Of a stretch of DNA of 64,000 nucleotides, positions 1,538 through 58,053 are shown piece by piece. The translations under genes were made by a program, and so were the position numbers. Position 1 is the first letter of the stretch. The number at the start of each line of letters is the position of its first letter. The notes below the pieces were generated by a model. It ran no database searches, was not told the DNA's origin, and saw only the letters and a program-made list of their open reading frames with translations. The DNA lies in the NCBI GenBank assembly GCA_029891345.1, contig CM056997.1:212885212-212949211 (forward strand), in the 5' to 3' direction. Origin of the DNA: Dryococelus australis (taxonomy: Eukaryota; Arthropoda; Insecta; Phasmatodea; Phasmatidae).

Positions 1538-2183
1538 TTTTTAACATATACATTTTATGGGGGAAAGACTTTTGTGGGCACAAACTAGACTCTTTGGTGC
1601 TATAAGAACCGCATTTATATATAAACAAATGACAATCGATGTTCTCACTCCGTGAGGTAATCATCTATTTGGAAGCGCTCTCTCGCTATATCACAAAGAT
1701 GACTTGCGAAATGGAAGGTCTGTCTTTGACCTCAACTAACATGGATCCGCGACCTGCATCATCATTAACTGGTTGTCTCCAGTGTAGATTCTGCGATCGA
1801 GTGATCACCTATGGTCAAAATGCTTGACGACATGAGAGAACGGCATGTATGAAGAGACCTTTTCGTGCGATGAAACTACACGACAATAGTCACATGCAGT
1901 ATGTGCAAGATGATACAATGAAGTAAGATAGTCAGATCTGCAAGGGTTCGTCCACTCGGAGCCAGCAAGTGATGTCACCAATACCTGCTGCTGCATCGAT
2001 GGGTACTCTTTCCGCGGACGATTACGACGAGATAATTAATGACAAAGACGGAATGAGCACAGTACAATCGGTTTGTGAGGAACGTACACTCGCCAGATGT
2101 TCGCGAGCAGTCGACAAACTTCAAAATACACGACCAACAGCTCTAAATACTGATGAACATGAACTCCTGCTGCAAGGGAAAGT

Positions 2184-5100
2184 AATGATGAAGCAGGATG
2201 TGAAGTCTACGATGACGACAGTAATAGTGTTCGAGACGATGACTATTCCCGCGAAGAAGCAGGAAGTGAAGTCTACGATGACGACAGTAGTAGTTATCGA
2301 GACGATGACTATTCCCGCGATGAAGCAGGAAGTGAAGTCTACGATGACGACAGTAATAGTGTTTGAGACGATGACTATTCCCGCGATGAAGCAGGAAGTG
2401 AAGTCTACGATGACAGTAGTAGTGTTCGAGACTATGACTATTCCCGCGATGAAGCAGGAAGTGAAGTCTACGATGACGACAGTAGTAGTGTTTGAGACGA
2501 TGACTATTCCCGCGATGAAGCAGGAAGTGAAGTCTACGATGACAGTAGTAGTGTTCGAGACGATGACTATTCCCGCGATGAAGCAGGAAGTGAAGTCTAC
2601 GATGACAGTAGTAGTGTTCGAGACTATGACTATTCCCGCGATGAAGCAGGAAGTGGAGTCTACGATGACGACAGTAGTAGTGTTTGAGACGATGACTATT
2701 CCCGCGATGAAGCAGGAAGTGAAGTCTACGATGACGACAGTAGTAGTGTTCGAGACGATGACTATTCCCGCGATGAAGCAGGAAGTGAAGTCTACGATGA
2801 CGACAGTAGTAGTGTTTGAGACGATGACTATTCCCGCGATGAAGCAGGAAGTGAAGTCTATGATGACGACAGTAGTAGTGTTCGAGACGATGACTATTCC
2901 CGCGATGAAGCAGGAAGTGAAGTCTACGATGACGACAGTAGTAGTGTTCGAGACGATGACTATTCCCGCGATGAAGCAGGAAGTGAAGTCTACGATGACG
3001 ACAGTAGTAGTGTTTGAGACGATGACTATTCCCGCGATGAAGCAGGAAGTGAAGTCTATGATGACGACAGTAGTAGTGTTCGAGACGATGACTATTCCCG
3101 CGATGAAGCAGGAAGTGAAGTCTACGATGACGACAGTAGTAGTGTTTGAGACGATGACTATTCCCGCGATGAAGCAGGAAGTGAAGTCTATGATGACGAC
3201 AGTAGTAGTGTTCGAGACTATGACTATTCCCACGATGAAGCAGGAAGTGAAGTCTACGATGACGACAGTAGTAGTGTTTGAGACGATGACTATTCCCGCG
3301 ATGAAGCAGGAAGTGAAGTCTACGATGACGACAGTAGTAGTGTTTGAGACGATGACTATTCCCGCGATGAAGCAGGAAGTGAAGTCTACGATGACGACAG
3401 TAGTAGTTATCGAGACGATGACTATTCCCGCGATGAAGCAGGAAGTGAAGTCTACGATGACAGTAGTAGTGTTCGAGACTATGACTATTCCCGCGATGAA
3501 GCAGGAAGTGAAGTCTACGATGACGACAGTAGTAGTGTTTGAGACGATGACTATTCCCGCGATGAAGCAGGAAGTGAAGTCTATGATGACGACAGTAGTA
3601 GTGTTCGAGACGATGACTATTCCCGCGATGAAGCAGGAAGTGAAGTCTACGATGACAGTAGTAGTGTTCGAGAAGATGACTATTCCCGCGATGAAGCAGG
3701 AAGTGAAGTCTACGATGACAGTAGTAGTGTTCGAGACGATGACTATTCCCGCGATGAAGCAGGAAGTGGAGTCTACGATGACGACAGTAGTAGTGTTCGA
3801 GAAGATGACTATTCCCGCGATGAAGCAGGAAGTGAAGTCTACGATGACAGTAGTAGTGTTCGAGACGATGACTATTCCCGCGATGAAGCAGGAAGTGAAG
3901 TCTATGATGACGACAGTAGTAGTGTTCGAGACGATGACTATTCCCGCGATGAAGCAGGAAGTGGAGTCTACGATGACTACAGTAGTAGTGTTCGAGACGA
4001 TGACTATTCCCGCGATGAAGCAGGAAGTGGAGTCTACGATGACAGTAGTAGTGTTCGAGACGATGACTATTCCCGCGATGAAGCAGGAAGTGGAGTCTAC
4101 GATGACGACAGTAGTAGTGTTTGAGACGATGACTATTCCCGCGATGAAGCAGGAAGTGAAGTCTACGATGACAGTAGTAGTGTTTGAGACGATGACTATT
4201 CCCGCGATGAAGCAGGAAGTGAAGTCTACGATGACAGTAGTAGTGTTCGAGACGATGACTATTCCCGCGATGAAGCAGGAAGTGGAGTCTACGATGACTA
4301 CAGTAGTAGTGTTCGAGACGATGACTATTCCCGCGATGAAGCAGGAAGTGAAGTCTACGATGACGACAGTAGTAGTGTTCGAGACGATGACTATTCCCGC
4401 GATGAAGCAGGAAGTGAAGTCTATGATGACGACAGTAGTAGTGTTCGAGACGATGACTATTCCCGCGATGAAGCAGGAAGTGGAGTCTACGATGACGACA
4501 GTAGTAGTGTTCGAGACGATGACTATTCCCGCGATGAAGCAGGAAGTGGAGTCTACGATGACGACAGTAGTAGTGTTTGAGACGATGACTATTCCCGCGA
4601 TGAAGCAGGAAGTGAAGTCTACGATGACAGTAGTAGTGTTCGAGACGATGACTATTCCCGCGAAGAAGCAGGAAGTGAAGTCTACGATGACGACAGTAGT
4701 AGTGTTCGAGACGATGACTATTCCCGCGATGAAGCAGGAAGTGAAGTCTACGATGACGACAGTAGTAGTGTTTGAGACGATGACTATTCCCGCGATGAAG
4801 CAGGAAGTGGAGTCTACGATGACGACAGTAGTAGTGTTCGAGAAGATGACTATTCCCGCGATGAAGCAGGAAGTGAAGTCTACGATGACAGTAGTAGTGT
4901 TCGAGACGATGACTATTCCCGCGATGAAGCAGGAAGTGGAGTCTACGATGACTACAGTAGTAGTGTTCGAGACGATGACTATTCCCGCGATGAAGCAGGA
5001 AGTGAAGTCTACGATGACGACAGTAGTAGTGTTTGAGACGATGACTATTCCCGCGATGAAGCAGGAAGTGGAGTCTACGATGACGACAGTAGTAGTGTTT

Positions 5101-8100
5101 GAGACGATGACTATTCCCGCGATGAAGCAGGAAGTGAAGTCTACGATGACGACAGTAGTAGTGTTCGAGACGATGACTATTCCCGCGATGAAGCAGGAAG
5201 TGAAGTCTACGATGACGACAGTAGTAGTGTTTGAGACGATGACTATTCCCGCGATGAAGCAGGAAGTGAAGTCTACGATGACGACAGTAGTAGTGTTTGA
5301 GACGATGACTATTCCCGCGATGAAGCAGGAAGTGAAGTCTACGATGACGACAGTAGTAGTGTTCGAGACGATGACTATTCCCGCGATGAAGCAGGAAGTG
5401 AAGTCTACGATGAGACGTAAGTAGTTAGACGAGCTTTCCGCATGAGCAGGAGTGAAGTTCGATGACAGTAGTAGTGTTCGAGACGATGACTATTCCCGCG
5501 ATGAAGCAGGAAGTGGAGTCTACGATCGACAGTAGTAGTGTTCGAGAAGATGACTATTCCCGCGATGAAGCAGGAAGTGAAGTCTACGATGACAGTAGTA
5601 GTGTTCGAGACGATGACTATTCCCGCGATGAAGCAGGAAGTGAAGTCTACGATGACGACAGTAGTAGTGTTTGAGACGATGACTATTCCCGCGATGAAGC
5701 AGGAAGTGAAGTCTACGATGACAGTAGTAGTGTTCGAGACGATGACTATTCCCGCGATGAAGCAGGAAGTGAAGTCTACGATGACGACGTATAGTGTTTG
5801 AGACGATGACTATTCCCGCGATGAAGCAGGAAGTGAAGTCTACGATGAGACAGTAGTAGTGTTTCGAGACATGACTATTCCCGCGATGAAGCAGGAAGTG
5901 AAGTCTACGATGGACAGTAGTAGTGTTTGAGACGATGACTATTCCCGCGATGAAGCAGGAAGTGAAGTCTACGATGACGACAGTAGTAGTTATCGAGACG
6001 ATGACTATTCCCGCGATGAAGCAGGAAGTGGAGTCTACGATGACGACAGTAGTAGTGTTTGAGACGATGACTATTCCCGCGATGAAGCAGGAAGTGAAGT
6101 CTACGATGGACAGTAGTAGTGTTGAGACGATGACTATTCCCGCGATGAAGCAGGAAGTGAAGTCTACGATGACAGTAGTAGTGTTCGAGACGATGACTAT
6201 TCCCGCGATGAAGCAGGAAGTGAAGTCTACGATGACGACAGTAGTAGTGTTCGAGACGATGACTATTCCCGCGATGAAGCAGGAAGTGAAGTCTACGATG
6301 ACGAAGTAGTAGTTATCGAGACGATGACTATTCCCGCGATGAAGCAGGAAGTGAAGTCTACGATGACGACAGTAGTAGTTATCGAGACGATGACTATTCC
6401 CGCGATGAAGCAGGAAGTGAAGTCTACGATGACGACAGTAGTAGTGTTTCGAGACGATGACTATTCCCGCGATGAAGCAGGAAGTGAAGTCTACGATGAC
6501 GACAGTAGTAGTGTTTGAGACGATGACTATTCCCGCGATGAAGCAGGAAGTGAAGTCTACGATGACGACAGTAGTAGTGTTTGAGACGATGACTATTCCC
6601 GCGATGAAGCAGGAAGTGAAGTCTACGATGACGACAGTAGTAGTGTTTGAGACGATGACTATTCCCGCGATGAAGCAGGAAGTGAAGTCTACGATGACGA
6701 CAGTAGTAGTGTTCGAGACGATGACTATTCCCACGATGAAGCAGGAAGTGAAGTCTACGATGACGACAGTAGTAGTGTTTGAGACGATGACTATTCCCGC
6801 GATGAAGCAGGAAGTGAAGTCTACGATGACGACAGTAGTAGTGTTTGAGACGATGACTATTCCCGCGATGAAGCAGGAAGTGAAGTCTACGATGACAGTA
6901 GTAGTGTTCGAGACGATGACTATTCCCGCGATGAAGCAGGAAGTGAAGTCTATGATGACGACAGTAGTAGTGTTTGAGACGATGACTATTCCCGCGATGA
7001 AGCAGGAAGTGAAGTCTACGATGACGACAGTAGTAGTGTTTGAGACGATGACTATTCCCGCGATGAAGCAGGAAGTGAAGTCTACGATGACGACAGTAGT
7101 AGTGTTCGAGACGATGACTATTCCCACGATGAAGCAGGAAGTGAAGTCTACGATGACGACAGTAGTAGTGTTTGAGACGATGACTATTCCCGCGATGAAG
7201 CAGGAAGTGAAGTCTACGATGACGACAGTAGTAGTGTTTGAGACGATGACTATTCCCGCGATGAAGCAGGAAGTGGAGTCTACGATGACAGTAGTAGTGT
7301 TCGAGACGATGACTATTCCCGCGATGAAGCAGGAAGTGGAGTCTACGATGACGACAGTAGTAGTGTTCGAGACGATGACTATTCCCGCGATGAAGCAGGA
7401 AGTGAAGTCTACGATGACGAAAGTAGTAGTGTTCGAGACGATGACTATTCCCGCGATGAAGCAGGAAGTGAAGTCTACGATGACGACAGTAGTAGTTATC
7501 GAGACGATGACTATTCCCGCGATGAAGCAGGAAGTGAAGTCTACGATGACGACAGTAGTAGTGTTCGAGACGATGACTATTCCCACGATGAAGCAGGAAG
7601 TGAAGTCTACGATGACGACAGTAGTAGTGTTTGAGACGATGACTATTCCCGCGATGAAGCAGGAAGTGAAGTCTACGATGACGACAGTAGTAGTGTTCGA
7701 GACGATGACTATTCCCACGATGAAGCAGGAAGTGAAGTCTACGATGACGACAGTAGTAGTGTTTGAGACGATGACTATTCCCACGATGAAGCAGGAAGTG
7801 AAGTCTACGATGACGACAGTAGTAGTGTTCGAGACGATGACTATTCCCGCGATGAAGCAGGAAGTGAAGTCTACGATGACGACAGTAGTAGTGTTTGAGA
7901 CGATGACTATTCCCGCGATGAAGCAGGAAGTGAAGTCTACGATGACGACAGTAGTAGTGTTCGAGACGATGACTATTCCCGCGATGAAGCAGGAAGTGAA
8001 GTCTACGATGACGACAGTAGTAGTGTTTTAGACGATGACTATTCCCGCGATGAAGCAGGAAGTGGAGTCTACGATGACGACAGTAGTAGTGTTCGAGACG

Positions 8101-8906
8101 ATGACTATTCCCGCGATGAAGCAGGAAGTGGAGTCTACGATGACGACAGTAGTAGTGTTTGAGACGATGACTATTCCCGCGATGAAGCAGGAAGTGAAGT
8201 CTACGATGACGACAGTAGTAGTTATCGAGACGATGACTATTCCCGCGATGAAGCAGGAAGTGAAGTCTACGATGACGACAGTAGTAGTGTTTGAGACGAT
8301 GACTATTCCCGCGATGAAGCAGGAAGTGAAGTCTATGATGACAGTAGTAGTGTTTGAGACGATGACTATTCCCGCGATGAAGCAGGAAGTGAAGTCTACG
8401 ATGACGAAAGTAGTAGTGTTCGAGACGATGACTATTCCCGCGAAGAAGCAGGAAGTGAAGTCTACGATGACGACAGTAGTAGTTATCGAGACGATGACTA
8501 TTCCCGCGATGAAGCAGGAAGTGGAGTCTACGATGACTACAGTAGTAGTGTTCGAGACGATGACTATTCCCGCGATGAAGCAGGAAGTGAAGTCTACGAT
8601 GACGACAGTAGTAGTGTTCGAGACGATGACTATTCCCGCGATGAAGCAGGAAGTGAAGTCTACGATGACGACAGTAGTAGTGTTTGAGACGATGACTATT
8701 CCCGCGATGAAGCAGGAAGTGAAGTCTACGATGACGACAGTAGTAGTGTTTGAGACGATGACTATTCCCGCGATGAAGCAGGAAGTGGAGTCTACGATGA
8801 CGACAGTAGTAGTGTTCGAGACGATGATTATTCCCGCGATGAAGCAGGAAGTGAAGTCTACGATGACGACAGTAGTAGTGTTCGAGACGATGATTATTCC
8901 CGCGAT
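2184..8906 (+). repeat. About 100-copy 66/63-bp tandem array (exon-derived minisatellite)
   Basis: The unit contains GATGACGACAGTAGTAGTG, then TTCGAG or TTTGAG, then ACGATGACTATTCCCGCGAT and GAAGCAGGAAGT. The basic length is 66 bp; a common 63-bp variant lacks one GAC. Recurrent variants are TTCGAG/TTTGAG/TATCGAG, GAAGTC/GGAGTC, TACGATG/TATGATG and CCCGCG/CCCACG. Because 63 and 66 are multiples of three, several frames on both strands stay open for hundreds of codons without meaning. Variants are arranged in short higher-order runs, for example alternating TTCGAG and TTTGAG units around 7.56-8.16 kb. In one plus frame the unit encodes an acidic Asp/Ser/Arg-rich 22-residue repeat that continues the upstream exon. 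Confidence 0.95.
5412..6450 (+). other. Indel-laden segment of the 66-bp array
   Basis: Units here contain single-base and few-base gains and losses absent from the rest of the array. Examples are GATGAGACGTAAGTAGTTAG near 5410, GACGACGTATAGTG near 5784, GATGGACAG near 5910 and 6107, GTGTTGAGACG near 6119 and GATGACGAAGTAG near 6298. Elsewhere length changes are almost only in steps of three. The clustering suggests either a poorly polished piece of assembly or a locally decayed block. Confidence 0.6.
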
Positions 8907-9074
8907 CTTCTGTGCCGTTTCTAGGCACGTTCTTTGTTTTATTTGTATTTTGCGCTTTACCTTAATGATTTGCGCGATGTGTTGTTAATTTCTTATACCT
9001 CACCGTGGATTTTTTGAGTGAAATAATTTTTTTTTGTTTTATGGCAGAATATTGATTATTTGTTCGTCTTTCTC

Positions 9075-9080
9075 AATAAA
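9075..9080 (+). terminator. Candidate polyadenylation signal
   Basis: AATAAA lies about 150 bp after the stop that closes the acidic frame of the exon-derived array and is followed by T-rich sequence. It is the natural 3' end for the 1.8-8.9 kb gene remnant, but isolated AATAAA motifs are common in AT-rich DNA. Confidence 0.35.
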
Positions 9081-9099
9081 GTCATTTTATTGGAATATT

Positions 9100-11239
9100 T
9101 TTATTTACTGTCATTATTTACTGATTAAGATGTTAAAAACTGAACCATAAGAAACTCATATTTCTTTGTGATTAACTTTTTGTCTCTACACGACATATCA
9201 CGGTTGATGAGATATATTAAACATTTTGTGCTTCTATACGAAGTATTTGGTGTTTTAGTTCAAATTTTTGCTACTAGAATACTCTTCGTGAAGTAAAACA
9301 TACATTTTTAAGGGTAATGGAAAGTGAGTATTTTTGTGTTAATTAAAGTTGTCTAAACTTCTAAGATTACATGATAAATATTTTGTGATGAAAAGAATAA
9401 CAGGTAAATGTAAAAATTATATTTTCACAACATAAAAGTTTAGCATAGATTGCACAATGCACGAAGTAATTTAAAGTTTGTCACTTCTATGTAATGTTCT
9501 ATGAACAGTCCTTCACGTAGCTACTCTTTGGTGCTGTGTAAGGCTTCTTCCTTCACCATTTTTATCATGTAGTTATCATCATCTCCATTTCTATGTCTCT
9601 TGTTTGATCCGTCTTTTTATAAGACTATATAAGACATCAAAGTGAGTAACCTGTTCGTTAACTTTTGGTCGTTGTCGGGAATATTGTATTTTATCGCGGC
9701 GAACATTATTTACGTCCCTTATTGATGTATAGCTGAGGGCGGTTCGCCGGGTGAGGCTCCATGTAATGGCCTTTGTCCATGCTGGTTGATCGCGACGATG
9801 CTTGCTGAGTAGAGGTCTGCGACCGAGTTTCTGCTGCTCCGACAGACAACAAGCACGCTATCTTAAATTGCTTCTTAGTATTTTTCTCACCAAGACATAT
9901 CGGAAAGACTCGCCCATACATGATGAATGTTTTAGACATCGAAGAACAACGCAAAAAAAAAAAAAAAAGACGTAGTCGGAGATATATTTATATATGATGT
10001 AAAACGTATTAAATTTTGTTCTTTGGAATTACAATTGGAAATCTGATGTCAAAATTTCATAGTTGAGTAACACGTAAAGCTAAAGAAATAACTGGCTGCA
10101 GAAAATGTTAAAGTTATCGGGGGCCCCTATAGTGTTAGTTAAATATGACATAAAATGATATTAAAAAATACAAAATACCAAGATATTCAAGTGAAGAGTA
10201 ACACCTAAAGATTTTTTTATGTAACAAGTTGTTTGATGTGAAAATTATGATATTATTATTGAGAGATTGTTGAAGAAGTTAATTACCCATGTTATATTTA
10301 TGTGCAAGTAAACAGCCTGCAGAAACCGAATGGGTGTCATGATTCTCTTTTAAATTTACCTTGCCCTTAACTGTCTTAAAAAATCAAACTTACTAAGTAT
10401 TACTATGATTTGACTATCCAATATTAGTAATATATCTTGAGTTGGATGCATTTGAAGAACCAATGTGGCTTAGTATGGTTTTGATAAACTTTGTTATTTG
10501 AGGAGATAACAAAATCTAGCAGTGCTGGGCCTTTTGGTGCTCTCCATATGACACACCTGAAAACCCTTGTCCCCACGACATCTGGCTAGTGCTGTAGTTC
10601 CCACAAATCTCCACAACATATCCGTTAACTATATTTTATGTGAAAGAATTAATGAGTTATAAGTCCATGCGTAGTAGGACTGTTTGTAAAATGACAACAG
10701 TGATGGCAAACTATGACATCTCCTATCTTTGAAATCTGTGATTTCTCAATATGATTGGTCGAGACAAGTGTAATTTGCATTCGAAATTCGCTTTTGTATT
10801 GCTGTAACGAAATATACTTAGTACAGTATAAGAGAAGTGTACTAAAGATATCATAAATAGAAAGATCGTAGCTGCCGCTCTAGTATAAGGTTGAAATAAT
10901 TTCGAAGTTCCACACACCGTAACAAGTAAATAACCAGAGATAATTGTTTAAGAAGGAGACTTAAATAAACTTTCATGACTATTTTTCATTTTAAACCCTT
11001 ATCATCAATATATTTCTTAAAATAAATAAATCTCTTGCTTGCTACTTTTTTTTTCTGTGAACGTCCAGAAAATGAATTAAAACAGACCATTATTTTAAAA
11101 TTTCCTACGTAGAAAATACATCTAATAAAGAAAATATTATAATTCCGTCATTATTAGAACATATCAGTGATTTGCTAGTAATTATTGAAATTATTTGAGT
11201 GGATAGTTCTCGAGCAATGACGAGTTTAATTTTTAATGC
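9100..11239. other. AT-rich intergenic DNA
   Basis: No gene, SINE or tandem array is recognised. An 82-codon minus-strand frame at 9706-9954 and a 64-codon frame at 10723-10917 have no family I know and no flanking splice structure that I could support. Confidence 0.4.
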
Positions 11240-11740: not shown

Positions 11741-11991
11741 TGGGCCGCGGTGGCTGAACGATTAGACTGCTCGCATCCCGACTAGGCGAACCGGGTTTAA
11801 TCCTCGGCCGGGTCACTCCTGGATTCCCACGACCGGGAATCGTGCCGGACGATGCCACTGGTATTGCGGCTTTTCTCGGGGATCTCCCGTTCCCTCCGCC
11901 CTTGCAATTCCGGCGCTGCTCAATACTTAGCTCGCTTCACCCTCATCAGCTCTCAAGACCTTGTTGTTAAGAACCACACAAACCTCTTCAC
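11741..11991 (+). mobile_element. tRNA-derived SINE, copy 1, with target duplication
   Basis: The head has a Pol III A-box-like TGGCTGAACGATTAG and a B-box-like GGGTTTAATCC spaced as in a tRNA. The body contains GTGCCGGACGATGCCACTGG, then TTTTCTCGGGGATCTCCCGT, TTCCGGCGCTGCTC and CCTCATCAGCTCTCAAGACC. The copy is flanked by an 11-bp duplication with one mismatch, TATTGGTTCAG at 11730-11740 and TACTGGTTCAG at 11992-12002, which fixes both ends. Copies 2 (39.8 kb) and 3 (57.8 kb) share head, body and tail order. Confidence 0.85.
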
Positions 11992-12167
11992 TACTGGTTC
12001 AGAGTCTGGCAGGACCTACCGGATGCGCAAAAGTCCAATGATACGCGAAAGTAACACGAACATGTATACCGCACTTAAGGTTGAAATAAAGCAACTGCAC
12101 CCGACTATATAACGTGAAGAACTCGTAAAAAATGTAACACTCACTATAAAATTGGTCAGAATAATGC

Positions 12168-22331: not shown

Positions 22332-22917
22332 ATGTTTGTGCTCAGCCCTAGACCGCTCGGGCATCATTACTTTGATAGCCAATTGGCACGAGCGTATAAC
22401 TTGGATAGGCATGTTAAGATCTGTAAAAATAATATTCCTACCGAGAAACGATATGCATCGTCTCCACTACATAATACCACAGAAGGAGAGGGTACTGACG
22501 TAATTACAAGAAATTAACAGACTGGAATACATTTAGTTCATAGAATTATACACTTTAAGCACTAGCACGGGAACGTAAAGATCTTGGACATAATATACCA
22601 TAACTAGCTTCGAACACTACTCTCGGTACGATAAACTTTCTCCAAAGCAAACTAAACTCGATATTTATGATGAAACAGGAAGTGAAGACAACATTGATGA
22701 TTCCAACAACAAGTTTCCTTCAACAAGTACTGTGAATAAGGAGTACATTTTTCCGAAAGATGGCAACGAATTTGTAGATAGAGATAGATATCTGCTTGAT
22801 TTGCAAAAACAAAGGGAAACATGAAAGAAATGGTTTCGATTTTTGGTATACTTGAAAACCGGGGATACATCGAATGAAAGTATTGAAGTATTATCTGCAA
22901 ACAGCAGGGAAGTATAA
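22332..22917 (+). pseudogene. Single-copy relative of the gene behind the 66-bp array
   Basis: Two coding-like pieces lie in order. At 22332-22517 the frame contains ARAYNLDRHVKIC, the C-terminal half of a zinc-finger-like H-x3-C motif. At 22621-22917 a frame with a single internal TGA (22822-22824) reads YDETGSEDNIDDSNN, then VDRDRYLLDLQKQRE, and after the stop KKWFRFLVYLKTG. The DETGSE..IDDSNN segment matches the DEAGSEVYDDDSSSV unit of the 1.8-8.9 kb array in residue pattern and in nucleotides (GATGAAACAGGAAGTGAAG against GATGAAGCAGGAAGTGAAG). In both loci the finger precedes the acidic segment by a few hundred bases. A phase-0 intron between GTAATT (after 22500) and CTCCAAAG (near 22650) is possible. 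Family unrecognised. Confidence 0.5.
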
Positions 22918-23154: not shown

Positions 23155-23335
23155 TTATCGAGGTATGTTCTTTGAGGAATAAGGTATGATTTATGAGGAA
23201 AACAGAATGATTTTTGACAAATTCTGAATGATTTTTGAGGATTACGGAATGATTTCTGAGGATTACAGAACGATTTATAAGGAATACGGAATGATTCTCT
23301 GAGGAATACGGAATGAGTTATGAGGAATAAGAAAC
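23155..23335 (+). repeat. Degenerate ~22-bp minisatellite
   Basis: About eight imperfect copies of GAGGAATACGGAATGATTT and variants (GAGGATTACGGAATGATTTC, AAGGAATACGGAATGATTCT) follow one another. Confidence 0.75.
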
Positions 23336-23408
23336 GAAATCTGTCTTTAGCGAGTTGGCAGACAGCTTATAACTAAATGGGTTAACACCCTATAATTTTT
23401 TTTGTTGA

Positions 23409-23610
23409 AATATCTGGTATGTACGTTTTGAGACATCTGTATAGTTTGTACAAGTTGTGTATCATTTGGTATGTATGTTTCGAGACATCCCATATAATTT
23501 ATACAAGTAGTGTAACGTTTGGTATCTACATTTTGAGAAATCCTGTATAATGTTTACAATTAGTGTAACATTTGGTATGTACGTTTTGAGACGTTTTGTA
23601 TATGTTTTGT
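23409..23610 (+). repeat. 53-bp tandem repeat, about 3.5 copies
   Basis: GGTATGTACGTTTTGAGACA recurs at 23416, 23468, 23521 and 23574 (spacings 52, 53, 53 bp) with GTATAATTTGTACAAGTAGTG between. Confidence 0.8.
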
Positions 23611-32080: not shown

Positions 32081-32624
32081 TGAACTATTGGCGAACAATC
32101 TACGCCCAAGTTTAACTAAAATTCCGGTATTTTTAAAACTGACATTTTCAGGAATTTTTAAAATTACGACAATATTTCTCCTAATTTCAAATTCCACATT
32201 TTTTTTAAAAGGGAAATGGCAAATTTAAAAGTTTTTCATGCGCTTCTGACAAAGCGCCTATTCCTTAAGACTTCTACATAAGGACTTTTAACATGTCCTT
32301 CTTTATCTGACACCTTAAGGGTCGTTCTGAGAATTAATAAATTTTTACAAATTCATAATTAACTCGACTGAAGCTCTCAGACTGCAGTGTTCGCCAATGA
32401 GCATGCGCCCTGGGCTTAAATACAAGCGAAATACACAATTTTATACTGGAGGGATACCTCACAATAACCTGCCAATCACGGGCCGTCGAACAGTCGGCAA
32501 TGTTGTTCTATAAACTCTAAGTCTTTAGCGCCGGAACTGACGTAACAATCGTGTGGCCAATTGGAGCTGCGCGGGCGGCCAACGTGATCACGCGCGCATC
32601 TACCGGCCACCCACAGAGGCTCTA

Positions 32625-32786
32625 GACGAGAAAGACCCAGGGGCGATGACAGACGAGAAAGACCCAGGGGCGATGACAGACGAGAAAGACCCAGGGGCGA
32701 TGACAGACGAGAAAGACCCAGGGGCGATGACAGTCGAGAAAGACCCAGGGGCGATGACAGACGAGAAAGACCCAGGGGCGATGACA
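32625..32786 (+). repeat. 27-bp minisatellite, exactly 6 copies
   Basis: The unit GACGAGAAAGACCCAGGGGC plus GATGACA repeats six times, with GTCGAG in place of GACGAG in the fifth copy. The unit is divisible by three, so it keeps a plus frame (DEKDPGAMT) and minus frames open without implying a protein. Confidence 0.95.
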
Positions 32787-33041
32787 GTCGTCTTGTTGTT
32801 TGTTGCTGCATCGTTCGTCCACTTTGTCGTTACAAAAATCCAACACAGACCTTCCAGTGTTCTTAGCAGTTGAAGGTTAGTGTTTAGGCATAAGCGTGTT
32901 TAAGTTTTCCGGTGATTTCAGGTGTATAACAGAAGAAGAAAAAACGTTCCCGAAAGTAATTTTTCTCCATGCTAGTTCAATATTGCGTAGCACGGTTTGG
33001 TAGCCAGTCGAGGCCAGGTGAAATGGATCCGTCGTTAAATT

Positions 33042-34823: not shown

Positions 34824-35026
34824 TTTATAAAATGCTGACGGAACAGTTCCTGCCCAAGTGAAATAAACCAGTGCTATCTCCTCGAACCTGGGCGAGATAT
34901 ACCTGTATTTATATTTGATTTAAAACCATAGAGAACAATACAAAATGATCTTCACTCCGTCGATATGTGGAAATCCTGGACGGGCACGCAAGTGGCACGT
35001 GGCTGGCTGGCGTTGCCTGGGCAAGG

Positions 35027-37622
35027 TGGCGTACGAGAGAGGGGAAGGCAGTCACACCTGCCCGTACTTGCAAACTAACAGGCCCGCCCAGCAGACGTGA
35101 GGCGTAGAGCTCGTCAAACACACCCCCGTCACAGCAAGGCGACGCACAAGAGAGGGGAAGGCAGTCATACCTGCCCATACTTGTAAACTAACAGGCCCGC
35201 CCAACGGACGTGAGGCATGGAGCTCGTCAAACACACCCCCGTCACAGCAAGGCGACGTACGAGAGAGGGGAAGGCAGTCATACCTGCCCATACTTCCAAA
35301 CTAACAGGCCCGCCCAACGGACGTGAAGCGTGGAGCTCGTCAAACACACCCCCGTCACAGCAAGGTGATGTACGAGAGAGGGGAAGGCAGTCATACCTGC
35401 CCATACTTGCAAACTAACAGGCCCGCCCAACGGACGTGAGGCGTGGAGCTCGTCAAACACACCCCCGTCACAGCAAGGCGACGTACGAGAGAGGGGAAGG
35501 CAGTCATACCTGCCCATACTTGCAAACTAACAGGCCCGCCCAACGGACGTGAAGCGTGGAGCTCGTCAAACACACCCCCGTCACAGCAAGGTGATGTACG
35601 AGAGAGGGGAAGGCAGTCACACCTGCCCATACTTGCAAACTAACAGGCCCGCCCAGCAGACGTGAGGCGTGGAGCTCGTCAAACACACCCCCGTCACAGC
35701 AAGGCGACGTACGAGAGAGGGGAAGGCAGTCATACCTGCCCATACTTGCAAACTAACAGGCCCGCCCAGCAGACGTGAGGCGTGGAGCTCGTCAAACACA
35801 CCCCCGTCACAGCAAGGTGATGTACGAGAGAGGGGAAGGCAGTCATACCTGCCCATACTTGCAAACTAACAGGCCCGCCCAACAGACGTGAGGCGTGGAG
35901 ATCGTCAAACACACCCCCGTCACAGCAAGGCGACGCACGAGAGAGTGGAAGGCAGTCATACATGCCCATACTTGTAAACTAACAGGCCCGCCCAGCGGAC
36001 GTGAGGCGTGGAGCTCGTCAAACACACCCCCGTCACAGCAAGGCGACGTACGAGAGAGGGGAAGACAGTCACACCTGCCCATACTTGCAAACTAACAGGC
36101 CCGCCCAGCGGACGTGAGGCGTGGATCTCGTCAAAACACACTCCCTCTCAGCAAGGTGATGTACGAGAGAGGGGAAGGCAGTCATACCTGCCCATACTTG
36201 TAAACTAACAGGCCCGCCCAGCAGACGTGAGGCGTGGAGCTCGTCAAACACACCTCCGTCACAGCACGGTGATGTACGAGAGAGGGGAAGGCAGTCACAC
36301 CTGCCCATACTTGTAAACTAACAGGCCCGCCCAGCAGACGTGAGGCGTGGAGCTCGTCAAACACACCTCCGTCACAGCAAGGCGACGTACGAGAGAGGGG
36401 AAGGCAGTCATACATGCCCATACTTGTAAACTAACAGGCCCGCCCAGCGGACGTGAGGCGTGGAGCTCGTCAAACACACCCCCGTCACAGCAAGGCGACG
36501 TACGAGAGAGGGGAAGGCAGTCATACATGCCCATACTTGTAAACTAACAGGCCCGCCCAACGGACGTGAGGCGTGGAGATCGTCAAACACACTCCCCTCT
36601 CAGCAAGGTGATGTACGAGAGAGGGGAAGGCAGTCATACCTGCCCATACTTGTAAACTAACAGGCCCGCCCAGCAGACGTGAGGCGTGGAGATCGTCAAA
36701 CACACCCCCGTCACAGCAAGGCGACGTACGAGAGAGGGGAAGACAGTCACACCTGCCCATACTTGCAAACTAACAGGCCCGCCCAGCGGACGTGAGGCGT
36801 GGATCTCGTCAAACACACTCCCCTCTCAGCAAGGTGATGTACGAGAGAGGGGAAGGCAGTCATACCTGCCCATACTTGTAAACTAACAGGCCCGCCCAGC
36901 AGACGTGAGGCGTGGAGCTCGTCAAACACACCTCCGTCACAGCACGGTGATGTACGAGAGAGGGGAAGGCAGTCACACCTGCCCATACTTGTAAACTAAC
37001 AGGCCCGCCCAGCGGACGTGAGGCGTGGAGCTCGTCAAACACACCCCCGTCACAGCAAGGCGACGTACGAGAGAGGGGAAGGCAGTCATACATGCCCATA
37101 CTTGTAAACTAACAGGCCCGCCCAACGGACGTGAGGCGTGGAGATCGTCAAACACACCCCCGTCACAGCAAGGCGACGCACGAGAGAGGGGAAGGCAGTC
37201 ATACATGCCCATACTTGTAAACTAACAGGCCCGCCCAGCGGACGTGAGGCGTGGATCTCGTCAAACACACTCCCCTCTCAGCAAGGTGATGTACGAGAGA
37301 GGGGAAGGCAGTCATACCTGCCCATACTTGTAAACTAACAGGCCCGCCCAGCAGACGTGAGGCGTGGAGCTCGTCAAACACACCTCCGTCACAGCACGGT
37401 GATGTACGAGAGAGGGGAAGGCAGTCACACCTGCCCATACTTGTAAACTAACAGGCCCGCCCAGCAGACGTGAGGCGTGGAGCTCGTCAAACACAACCCC
37501 GTCACAGCAAGGTGATGTACGAGAGAGGGGAAGGCAGTCATACCTGCCCATACTTGCAAACTAACAGGCCCGCCCAGCGGACGTGAGGCGTGGAGCTCGT
37601 CAAACACACCCCCGTCACAGCG
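35027..37622 (+). repeat. 113-bp satellite, about 23 copies, with a 452-bp higher-order unit
   Basis: Each unit runs GTACGAGAGAGGGGAAGGCA, CCTGCCCATACTTG, AACTAACAGGCCCGCCCA, GACGTGAGGCGTGGAGCTCG and CCCCCGTCACAGCAAGG. The spacing is a strict 113 bp. Since 113 is not a multiple of three, the many 60-79 codon frames shift from unit to unit and are artefacts. Variant units recur in a set order: CTCCCCTCTCAG, then CCTCCGTCACAGCACGG, then two CCCGTCACAGCAAGGCGACG units with CATACATG. The first variant appears at about 36138, 36590, 36816 and 37268, giving 452-bp (four-unit) periods with one 226-bp interruption. Confidence 0.95.
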
Positions 37623-37744
37623 AAGGTAAGCCATCCCTAACGGCCGACATTTTCTCAACTTCGTATTGCATCGTCGGCTTGACTTCCGTTCGATGTGCAG
37701 CGATTGCCGTCTCAGTGACTTACAGAGGTCGTCACTTATTTTCA

Positions 37745-38698: not shown

Positions 38699-38995
38699 TC
38701 ATTTGCAATAACCACATATGTAAGGTCCAACGTCATCAATGTCAATTCCTGCACATTGTTCATGTGCCCATTCATCGCACACAACACACTTAATCCACCC
38801 TTCTTCTGATTTGGAGTTGGAATATAAGTCATTACAGAAGATACATCCGGCATTTGTCTCCTCTTCATCAGAAGTGTCTGATTCATCCTGAGTTGTAGAT
38901 ATTTTAGTTTTCTTTTGGCTGTTGTGTAGGCCCAATCCTAAAACAAGGGTTAAAATATATTTCTGGTAATTATTTTGAAAAAAATTACTCATCAT
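38699..38995 (-). pseudogene. Transposase C-terminal exon with PHD finger
   Basis: The frame holds an acidic stretch (TTQDESDTSDEEE) followed by a complete C4HC3 PHD pattern: CIFC, then CVVC, then HEQC, then CGYC, ending within a few residues of the last cysteine. The spacing EGWIKCVVCDEWAHEQC is typical of the PHD finger at the end of insect pogo/Tigger-like transposases. It lies between the terminal repeats, on the same strand as the N-terminal fragment at 39.2 kb. The upstream part of the frame is probably intron. Confidence 0.7.
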
Positions 38996-39152
38996 AATAA
39001 TAACATATTATTACAATTTTAATAAATGTTTTAAAAAGAAAGTCACTTATTTTGTATTTAAAAACATCAAATAATTTTGAAATGCATATCTTTCTAAGTA
39101 GCATCCTCAAGCGACAAACCAATTGTTGCGATCTTCCCCCTCGCTTCAGGAG

Positions 39153-39765: not shown

Positions 39766-40030
39766 CGTGGGGCAGCGGTGGCTGAGCCGTTAGCCTGCTC
39801 GCCTTTCACCAAAGCGAACCAGGGTTCAATCCCCGGCAGGGTCATTCCCAGTGTTTTGTAGCAAGTGGGAATCGTGCCGGACGATGCCACTGGCCGGTGG
39901 ATTTTCTCGGGGATCTTCCGTTTGCCTCGCCTTTTCATTCCGGCGCTGCTCCTTACTCACCTCACTCCACCCTCATCGGCTCTGAAGACCCCGATGTTAA
40001 TAATTGCCCAAATTTCTTCACTCACTGTGC
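39766..40030 (+). mobile_element. tRNA-derived SINE, copy 2
   Basis: The head GGCAGCGGTGGCTGAGCCGT and TAGCCTGCTCGCC contains the A-box; GGGTTCAATCCCCGG is the B-box. The body has ATCGTGCCGGACGATGCCAC, then TTTTCTCGGGGATCTTCCGT and TTCCGGCGCTGCTCC; the tail has CACCCTCATCGGCTCTGAAGACC and ends CTTCACTCACTG. Target duplication is weak (TGTGCA on both sides). Confidence 0.85.
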
Positions 40031-57810: not shown

Positions 57811-58053
57811 AATGACTGAGTGGTTAGCCTGCTCGCCTCCCACCATGGCAAACCGGGTTCAATCCCCAGCCGGGTCACCGGATTTTCGCAAGTGGATATC
57901 GTGCCGGGCGATACCGTTTGTTGGCGGGTTTTCTCGGGGATCTCCCGTTGTCCCCACCCTTTCATTCCGGGCAGCTCCATACTTACCTCAATCGCCCACA
58001 TCGGCTCTCAAGACCTCGCTGTTAAGAGCCGCCCAAATCTCTTCACTCACTCT
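57811..58053 (+). mobile_element. tRNA-derived SINE, copy 3 (5' truncated)
   Basis: Lacks the first bases of the head but keeps TGACTGAGTGGTTAGCCTGC (A-box), GGGTTCAATCCCCAGCCGGG (B-box), GATATCGTGCCGGGCGATAC, GGGTTTTCTCGGGGATCTCC, TTCATTCCGGGCAGCTCC, CATCGGCTCTCAAGACC and the ending TCTTCACTCACTCT. Confidence 0.85.

Follow-up and report, generated by a model that had tools for sequence, protein, structure and literature searches.

The window analysed here is a 64,000-nucleotide stretch of the genome of the phasmatid insect Dryococelus australis (assembly GCA_029891345.1, contig CM056997.1, positions 212,885,212 to 212,949,211 of the forward strand). It holds a 66-bp tandem array at 2187–8906, which we read, with a probability of about 0.87, as a young local minisatellite expanded from the acidic segment of a dead gene copy, the gene itself being probably that of a mobile element. 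In all likelihood no protein is now made from the array. The initial annotation had seen here the coding sequence of a finger-plus-acidic gene amplified about 100-fold; the amplification stands but the living gene does not, as the copy is decayed and has a TGA in its finger at 1825. Features of this locus are given by window position and lie on the plus strand.

Tandem Repeats Finder reports for the window a period of 66 bp over 2187–8906, with about 103 copies and 95 per cent matches in one head-to-tail array, in agreement with the roughly 100 units described before. A unit free of TGA reads DEAGSEVYDDDSSSVRDDDYSR in the acidic frame, and its source is the 66-bp acidic coding segment that occurs as a single copy in a dispersed element elsewhere in the genome. 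Among 101 parsed unit intervals, the 7 that are neither 63 nor 66 bp long all fall in an indel-rich zone at 5388–6473, where they make up 7 of 16 units. The assembly (3.42 Gb, scaffold N50 262.27 Mb) was built from PacBio continuous long reads (CLR), and in the genome paper its authors mention uncorrected indel errors that polishing with short reads might remove (PMC10268593). Given such an assembly and their clustering, the irregular units are probably consensus errors. Of the 85 clean units outside the zone, 70 have the full 66 bp, and the other 15, at 63 bp, have all lost one GAC. This 63-bp class is therefore probably a single event that was copied around. The multiples of three pointed out earlier thus hold for the units outside the zone, but as an argument for coding they have one 3-bp length class as their whole basis. 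The in-frame length classes are explained by the coding ancestry of the unit and not by present coding.

One codon varies between units, being CGA in 50 of the 85 clean units, TGA in 34 and TTA in 1. These TGA codons rule out an open acidic frame: entered at the proposed splice, it meets its first stop at 2364 and seventeen TGAs before 5388, and no open passage through the array was found in this phase. Of fifteen kinds of single-base change scored between units, 12 replace an amino acid in the acidic frame, 2 are silent and 1 makes a stop; the corresponding figures for the +1 frame are 10, 4 and 1. Silent changes are not in excess over replacements between the array units in either frame, and the array shows no sign of protein constraint in either.

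The origin of the unit was traced in the whole genome (3,415,067,245 bases in 646 contigs). With window 1700–2400 as query, the best 40 of 6,665 candidates were scored; 39 lie outside the window locus at 78–86 per cent identity, and most of these 39 places extend from the finger across the supposed intron into the beginning of the acidic part. A second query, a 216-residue stretch of one copy (L021), gave 22,828 candidates, of which the best 150 were scored, all with E below 1e-69. The match is free of stops in 28 of these best 150 places, L021 itself included. Judged by these matches, the finger-acidic gene does not stand alone as a host gene but belongs to a dispersed family with a very large number of members.

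We fetched 20 of the 39 places with about 4.7 kb on each side. When the window is compared with these copies by BLAST, homology starts at 1490–1510 in 11 of the 20 and later in the other 9, and ends at 2185–2254, with 78–86 per cent identity. Beyond the acidic segment, about 2 kb of further sequence is common to many copies. Read from the codon that matches window 1738, 11 of the 20 (L009, L010, L012, L015, L016, L019, L020, L021, L025, L026, and L028) show no net frameshift between the finger and the acidic segment, the supposed intron included, and two (L010 and L021) are free of stops across that stretch as well. This in-frame read-through indicates that the ancestral gene was one exon. Its protein ran from the finger pattern through a middle part and the acidic segment to a C-terminal part ending near ...ELKDRGYI. 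The initial annotation was thus right to take the acidic frame, and not the longer 1165-codon frame, as ancestral, and right that the acidic stretch and the upstream finger once formed one protein.

The 5′ part of one decayed copy of this element occupies 1490–2186 of the window, as delimited by BLAST against the 20 fetched copies and an alignment of 5′ ends. By eye it contains a TATA-like box at 1616–1625 and a finger pattern, C-x2-C-x12-H-x4-C, followed by coding-like sequence that reaches the array; an ATG stands at 1699. Inside the finger, at 1825–1827, the window copy has TGA where the alignment gives CGA in 16 of the 20 copies, TGA in L025, CGG in L026, CAA in L015, and a gap in L009. 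The TGA shared with L025 fits either a recurrent CpG transition or a shared subfamily.

The segment that had been proposed as an intron, 1923–2176, is coding in the finger’s frame in the relatives, by both alignment and frame reading. The phase across the splice is arithmetically correct, as claimed (AA/G GAA AGT AAT GAT GAA, the slash marking the junction). The intron itself is ruled out, since the GT of the supposed donor at 1923–1924 is missing in 19 of the 20 copies (the exception, L028, has GTATGA) and 11 of the 20 read through in frame. The TAA at 1924–1926, formerly explained as part of that donor, aligns with GAA in 16 copies, AAA in 3 and TAT in 1 (L028). The G+C content of the segment is 0.476 against 0.32–0.35 in the upstream flank, and the segment is open in the finger’s frame, which dinucleotide shuffles equal in 1.4 per cent of cases, or in 3.6 per cent if any forward frame is allowed. 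Alignment of the window with the 20 copies also places a one-base deletion at 2158–2163, which offsets the finger frame from the acidic frame; because of the base missing at 2160/2161, the finger frame of the window copy enters the +1 frame. The missing base may be real or an assembly error. With the TGA in its finger, the TAA at 1924 and the one-base shift, the window copy is a decayed pseudogene.

We then compared acidic segments across 29 copies, namely the first 20 and nine more (L033–L041) picked for matching the array unit. The segment could be measured in 26 of the 29; L009, L012, and L019 had none by the pattern used and stand outside the length counts. Lengths were 63 bp (one copy), 66 (nine), 69 (one), 74 (one), 81 (one), 88 (one), 90 (nine), and 93 (three), and are divisible by three in 24 of the 26. 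The window unit is the 66-bp form of this segment. That form occurs in 3 of the 17 measured copies among the first 20 and in 6 of the 9 among L033–L041, a share that is not a family frequency because the latter were fetched for their match to the array unit. In L018 the 66-bp segment has a different end.

BLAST of the unit found no tandem acidic units in any of the 29 copies. An array-only query (window 3000–3400), in a search that skips very common words, returned 22 candidates, all of them scored, with 42 matches, 21 at the window locus and 21 elsewhere. Each of the 21 elsewhere is about one unit long (46–80 bp, 75–87 per cent identity), and the nine that we read with their flanks all match the window upstream of the array too. 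In this search the array was found at the window locus only, and finger-plus-acidic relatives with few units, of the kind the initial annotation had wanted sought, do exist in the same genome. The array units are about 95 per cent alike, against a divergence of 14–22 per cent between the host copy and its relatives, so the array is young relative to the copy that carries it.

On its 3′ side the array is not followed by the rest of the gene. A profile built from the 3′ halves of 15 copies matches the window within the array up to 8905. Five of its 105 matches (E up to 10) lie outside the array: one strong match at 22701–22875 (E 5e-19) and four with E 0.3–9, of which one is a weak neighbour of the strong match and three (E 3–9) are far off. 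By this comparison, the 3′ part of the array-bearing copy is missing and the copy ends at the array. Window 22645–22900 holds a separate decayed fragment of the finger-gene family, with the acidic start and the C-terminal part, and shortly past it, at 23161–23592, are tandem repeats of 21/42/63 bp and 53 bp.

A second, unrelated dispersed element adjoins the array on the plus strand at 8911–10592 (the end is approximate), with the boundary at 8907–8913. The best 40 of 104 candidates for this element were scored, and the long matches have 73–87 per cent identity. Its first bases common to the copies are TGTGCCGTTTYTAGGCACG at 8911, and the preceding sequence differs, by eye, in the six other copies read. 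This element contains both TAG 8922–8924, the first acidic-frame stop beyond the array, and AATAAA 9075–9080, so neither signal is the finger-acidic gene’s own. The earlier statement that the frame closes just after the array ahead of an AATAAA is accordingly true of the TAG, but the frame has met TGAs long before, and both signals belong to the neighbour. The second element opens with a hairpin-like GTGCC...GGCAC against the array end.

These results fit the following course of events. A high-copy dispersed element carries a single-exon gene for a short protein with an N-terminal finger-like motif, a middle part, an acidic Asp/Glu/Ser stretch and a C-terminal part. The copy at the window locus has lost its coding ability, as the three lesions described above show. 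A head-to-tail duplication of its 66-bp acidic segment would have taken place, the probable mechanism being slippage or unequal exchange at GATG motifs. GATG, the first four bases of the unit, directly follows the 66-bp segment in three of nine copies (L010, L015, and L034), and a GATG start is seen in L034 and in L033 (63-bp segment); its presence after the segment in some relatives would offer a simple route to the first duplication over four bases. The pattern of the array suggests that unequal exchange or conversion enlarged it to about 103 units, and the same processes may have spread the CGA-to-TGA change to 34 of the 85 clean units and the 3-bp loss to 15 of the 85. The 3′ part of the copy is gone, and another dispersed element now adjoins the array at 8911.

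Several points weigh against this account. Nine of the 20 copies do not show the in-frame passage (eight are frameshifted, and L027 has a misaligned start). The 20 copies, taken without the window copy and with the misaligned L027 included, show no excess of change at third codon positions (0.151/0.111/0.125 for positions one to three in the exon part, 0.138/0.131/0.108 in the ‘intron’ part), so the case for an open reading frame in the family is one of continuity and in-frame lengths, not of a selection test. Only L033 and L034 have GATG at both ends of the segment, and six of the nine copies with a 66-bp segment were chosen through their match to the array unit. The number of units is that of a single long-read assembly. 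Gene death may have come before or after the first duplications. The element is probably mobile, to judge from its dispersal. Its ends were compared by alignment only, which brought out neither a terminal repeat nor a target-site duplication, and a transposase was not shown.

The closest competitor to a dead array is one that grew while the copy was still translated, lengthening an acidic tail as a coding variable-number tandem repeat, with death coming later. The segment lengths divisible by three in 24 of 26 copies and the two in-frame length classes of the array agree with this, but one 3-bp event is enough for the latter, the array has no silent excess, and TGA has spread through it; we consider such a history unlikely. 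The model of the initial annotation, in which a host gene has a finger exon and, past an intron of 254 bp, a giant acidic exon whose frame is still open as far as the stop at 8924, can draw on the fitting phase and on the GTAAGA...AG of the window copy. Against it are the TGA in the finger and in 34 of the 85 clean units, the 19 of 20 relatives without a donor GT, the 11 of 20 that read the segment as coding, and a final stop that sits inside another dispersed element. As an open frame this model is already refuted, and what is left of it has a very slim chance. Equally hard to credit is an array-bearing copy that is still expressed, its acidic tail or +1 frame being translated through TGA readthrough or from the array start; were this true, unit number would tune a long protein, either acidic or rich in Thr and Val, with its origin in the gene of a mobile element.

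The +1 frame deserves separate mention, as it could be taken for a new gene overprinted on the array. It runs from 1927 to 5424 (1165 codons, MTIPAMKQEVKSTM...) and so stays open for 3.5 kb, the CGA and TGA alleles read in it as TTC and TTT, a silent difference (Phe), and outside the indel-rich zone its only stop in the array is a TAG near 8030. Yet repetition of a 66-bp unit that has no stop leaves a frame open over the whole array by simple arithmetic, and two minus-strand frames exceed 1,000 codons besides this plus-strand one. Its change kinds (10 replacement, 4 silent and 1 stop) speak against it too, and every Pfam match of its first 278 codons was below the cut-off (best E 0.00079). We give an overprinted gene almost no weight. 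It is also very improbable that a short array was inflated or scrambled by error-prone long reads, despite the CLR-based assembly, its authors’ indel caveat and the clustering of irregular units in 5388–6473. Distinguishable variants of the unit are intermixed across 6.7 kb, a span well under the read N50 of 35 kb given in the genome paper (PMC10268593), and recurrent substitutions are not indel errors.

Tandem DNA derived from dispersed elements has been described before. In Drosophila virilis, Tetris is a foldback element, apparently nonautonomous, whose TIR-220 repeats grew into kb-size tandem arrays (PMC4079207). In both cases a dispersed element supplied the segment that became a tandem array; as far as the excerpted description of Tetris goes, however, TIR-220 comes from terminal inverted repeats that are already tandem within the element and its copies lack conserved open reading frames, whereas the present unit is a single coding segment and its array stands at one locus. 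Other satellites derive from open reading frames of transposable elements, for which a review, in the part consulted, lists CR1 ORF2 for chicken HinfI, LINE-1 ORF2 for PROsat, gag for rye E3900, and CACTA Tnp2 for Chenopodium CficCl-61-40 (PMC9659126). Like these, the present array is a tandem repeat made from mobile-element coding sequence; unlike them, on that account, its unit is short (22 codons), keeps its codon phase, and has single-copy relatives in the same genome. Reviews propose microhomology-driven duplication as a source of satellites, as their excerpts have it (PMC9659126, PMC12628747). The miDNA4 satellite of Xenopus, from a miniature inverted-repeat transposable element, is described in one such excerpt as a captured tandem repeat with AT-rich flanks (PMC12628747). 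It resembles our case in that an element contains a single monomer or an array, whose growth has been ascribed in a proposal to short direct repeats, but by that description differs in that the present unit is a coding segment with GATG and not a captured repeat with AT-rich flanks. The present array is the same kind of event as these known satellites, a clear instance but not an unprecedented one.

In coding minisatellites, such as those of mucins and involucrin, a protein segment is repeated in frame tens or hundreds of times, and the arrays are open and expressed. The present array resembles them in its many in-frame repeats of a protein segment and differs in being interrupted by TGA. It makes the birth of tandem DNA traceable, with single-copy relatives of the unit, the dispersed host element and the expanded copy all in one genome. 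It also advises caution, in that a dead array of coding origin can have unit lengths that are multiples of three and show extended open frames as well as a believable splice site. None of the titles and abstract beginnings listed in searches of open-access literature mentions the 66-bp array, a result whose scope does not extend to the supplementary repeat library of the genome paper.

As to the identity of the element, Pfam matches of the finger protein were all below the cut-offs (zf-WIZ, E 0.01; zf-C2H2_4, E 0.12; zf-C2H2, E 0.15). A PDB sequence search gave nothing usable (best E 0.002, SAKe6FR, over the acidic stretch), nor did scans of viral contigs with the finger protein, and Rfam and tRNA scans of the window had no matches. 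As to a link with Polinton/Maverick elements through their protein-primed family B DNA polymerase (PF03175), no co-location was seen among the entries listed: of the 54 PF03175 matches none comes within 20 kb of any of the 150 finger-gene places, the smallest distance is 300 kb, and each list covers only part of the places in the genome.

Five close pairs within 10 kb occur among the best 150 places (C7:36991023/36992205, C8:101666175/101669959, C17:266003229/266004936, C3:111319046/111320979, and C1:139708524/139717101), and all five are divergent, minus then plus, with promoters facing each other. Under uniform placing of 150 copies, 0.13 adjacent pairs would be expected within 20 kb. Two more pairs are farther apart, a convergent one at 16 kb and a same-strand one at 25 kb. 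Upstream of two copies (L011 and L022), a piece of the 5′ end recurs in inverted orientation. By its layout, the element may be of an inverted-repeat or foldback type with one gene per arm, the 2.8-kb unit then being one of its arms.

Other repeats are present in the window. A dispersed repeat recurs at 11742–11996, 39770–40027, and 57813–58047 (76–77 per cent identity) and is also found near several of the fetched copies. On the minus strand, an open stretch at 38702–39007 has a PHD-finger-like match (E 0.00017) that is below the Pfam cut-off. A 113-bp tandem array at 35021–37627 (23 copies, 93 per cent matches) has a consensus unlike that of the 66-bp array, and a 27-bp array at 32624–32787 (6 copies, 98 per cent matches), with a period divisible by three, is open in several frames.

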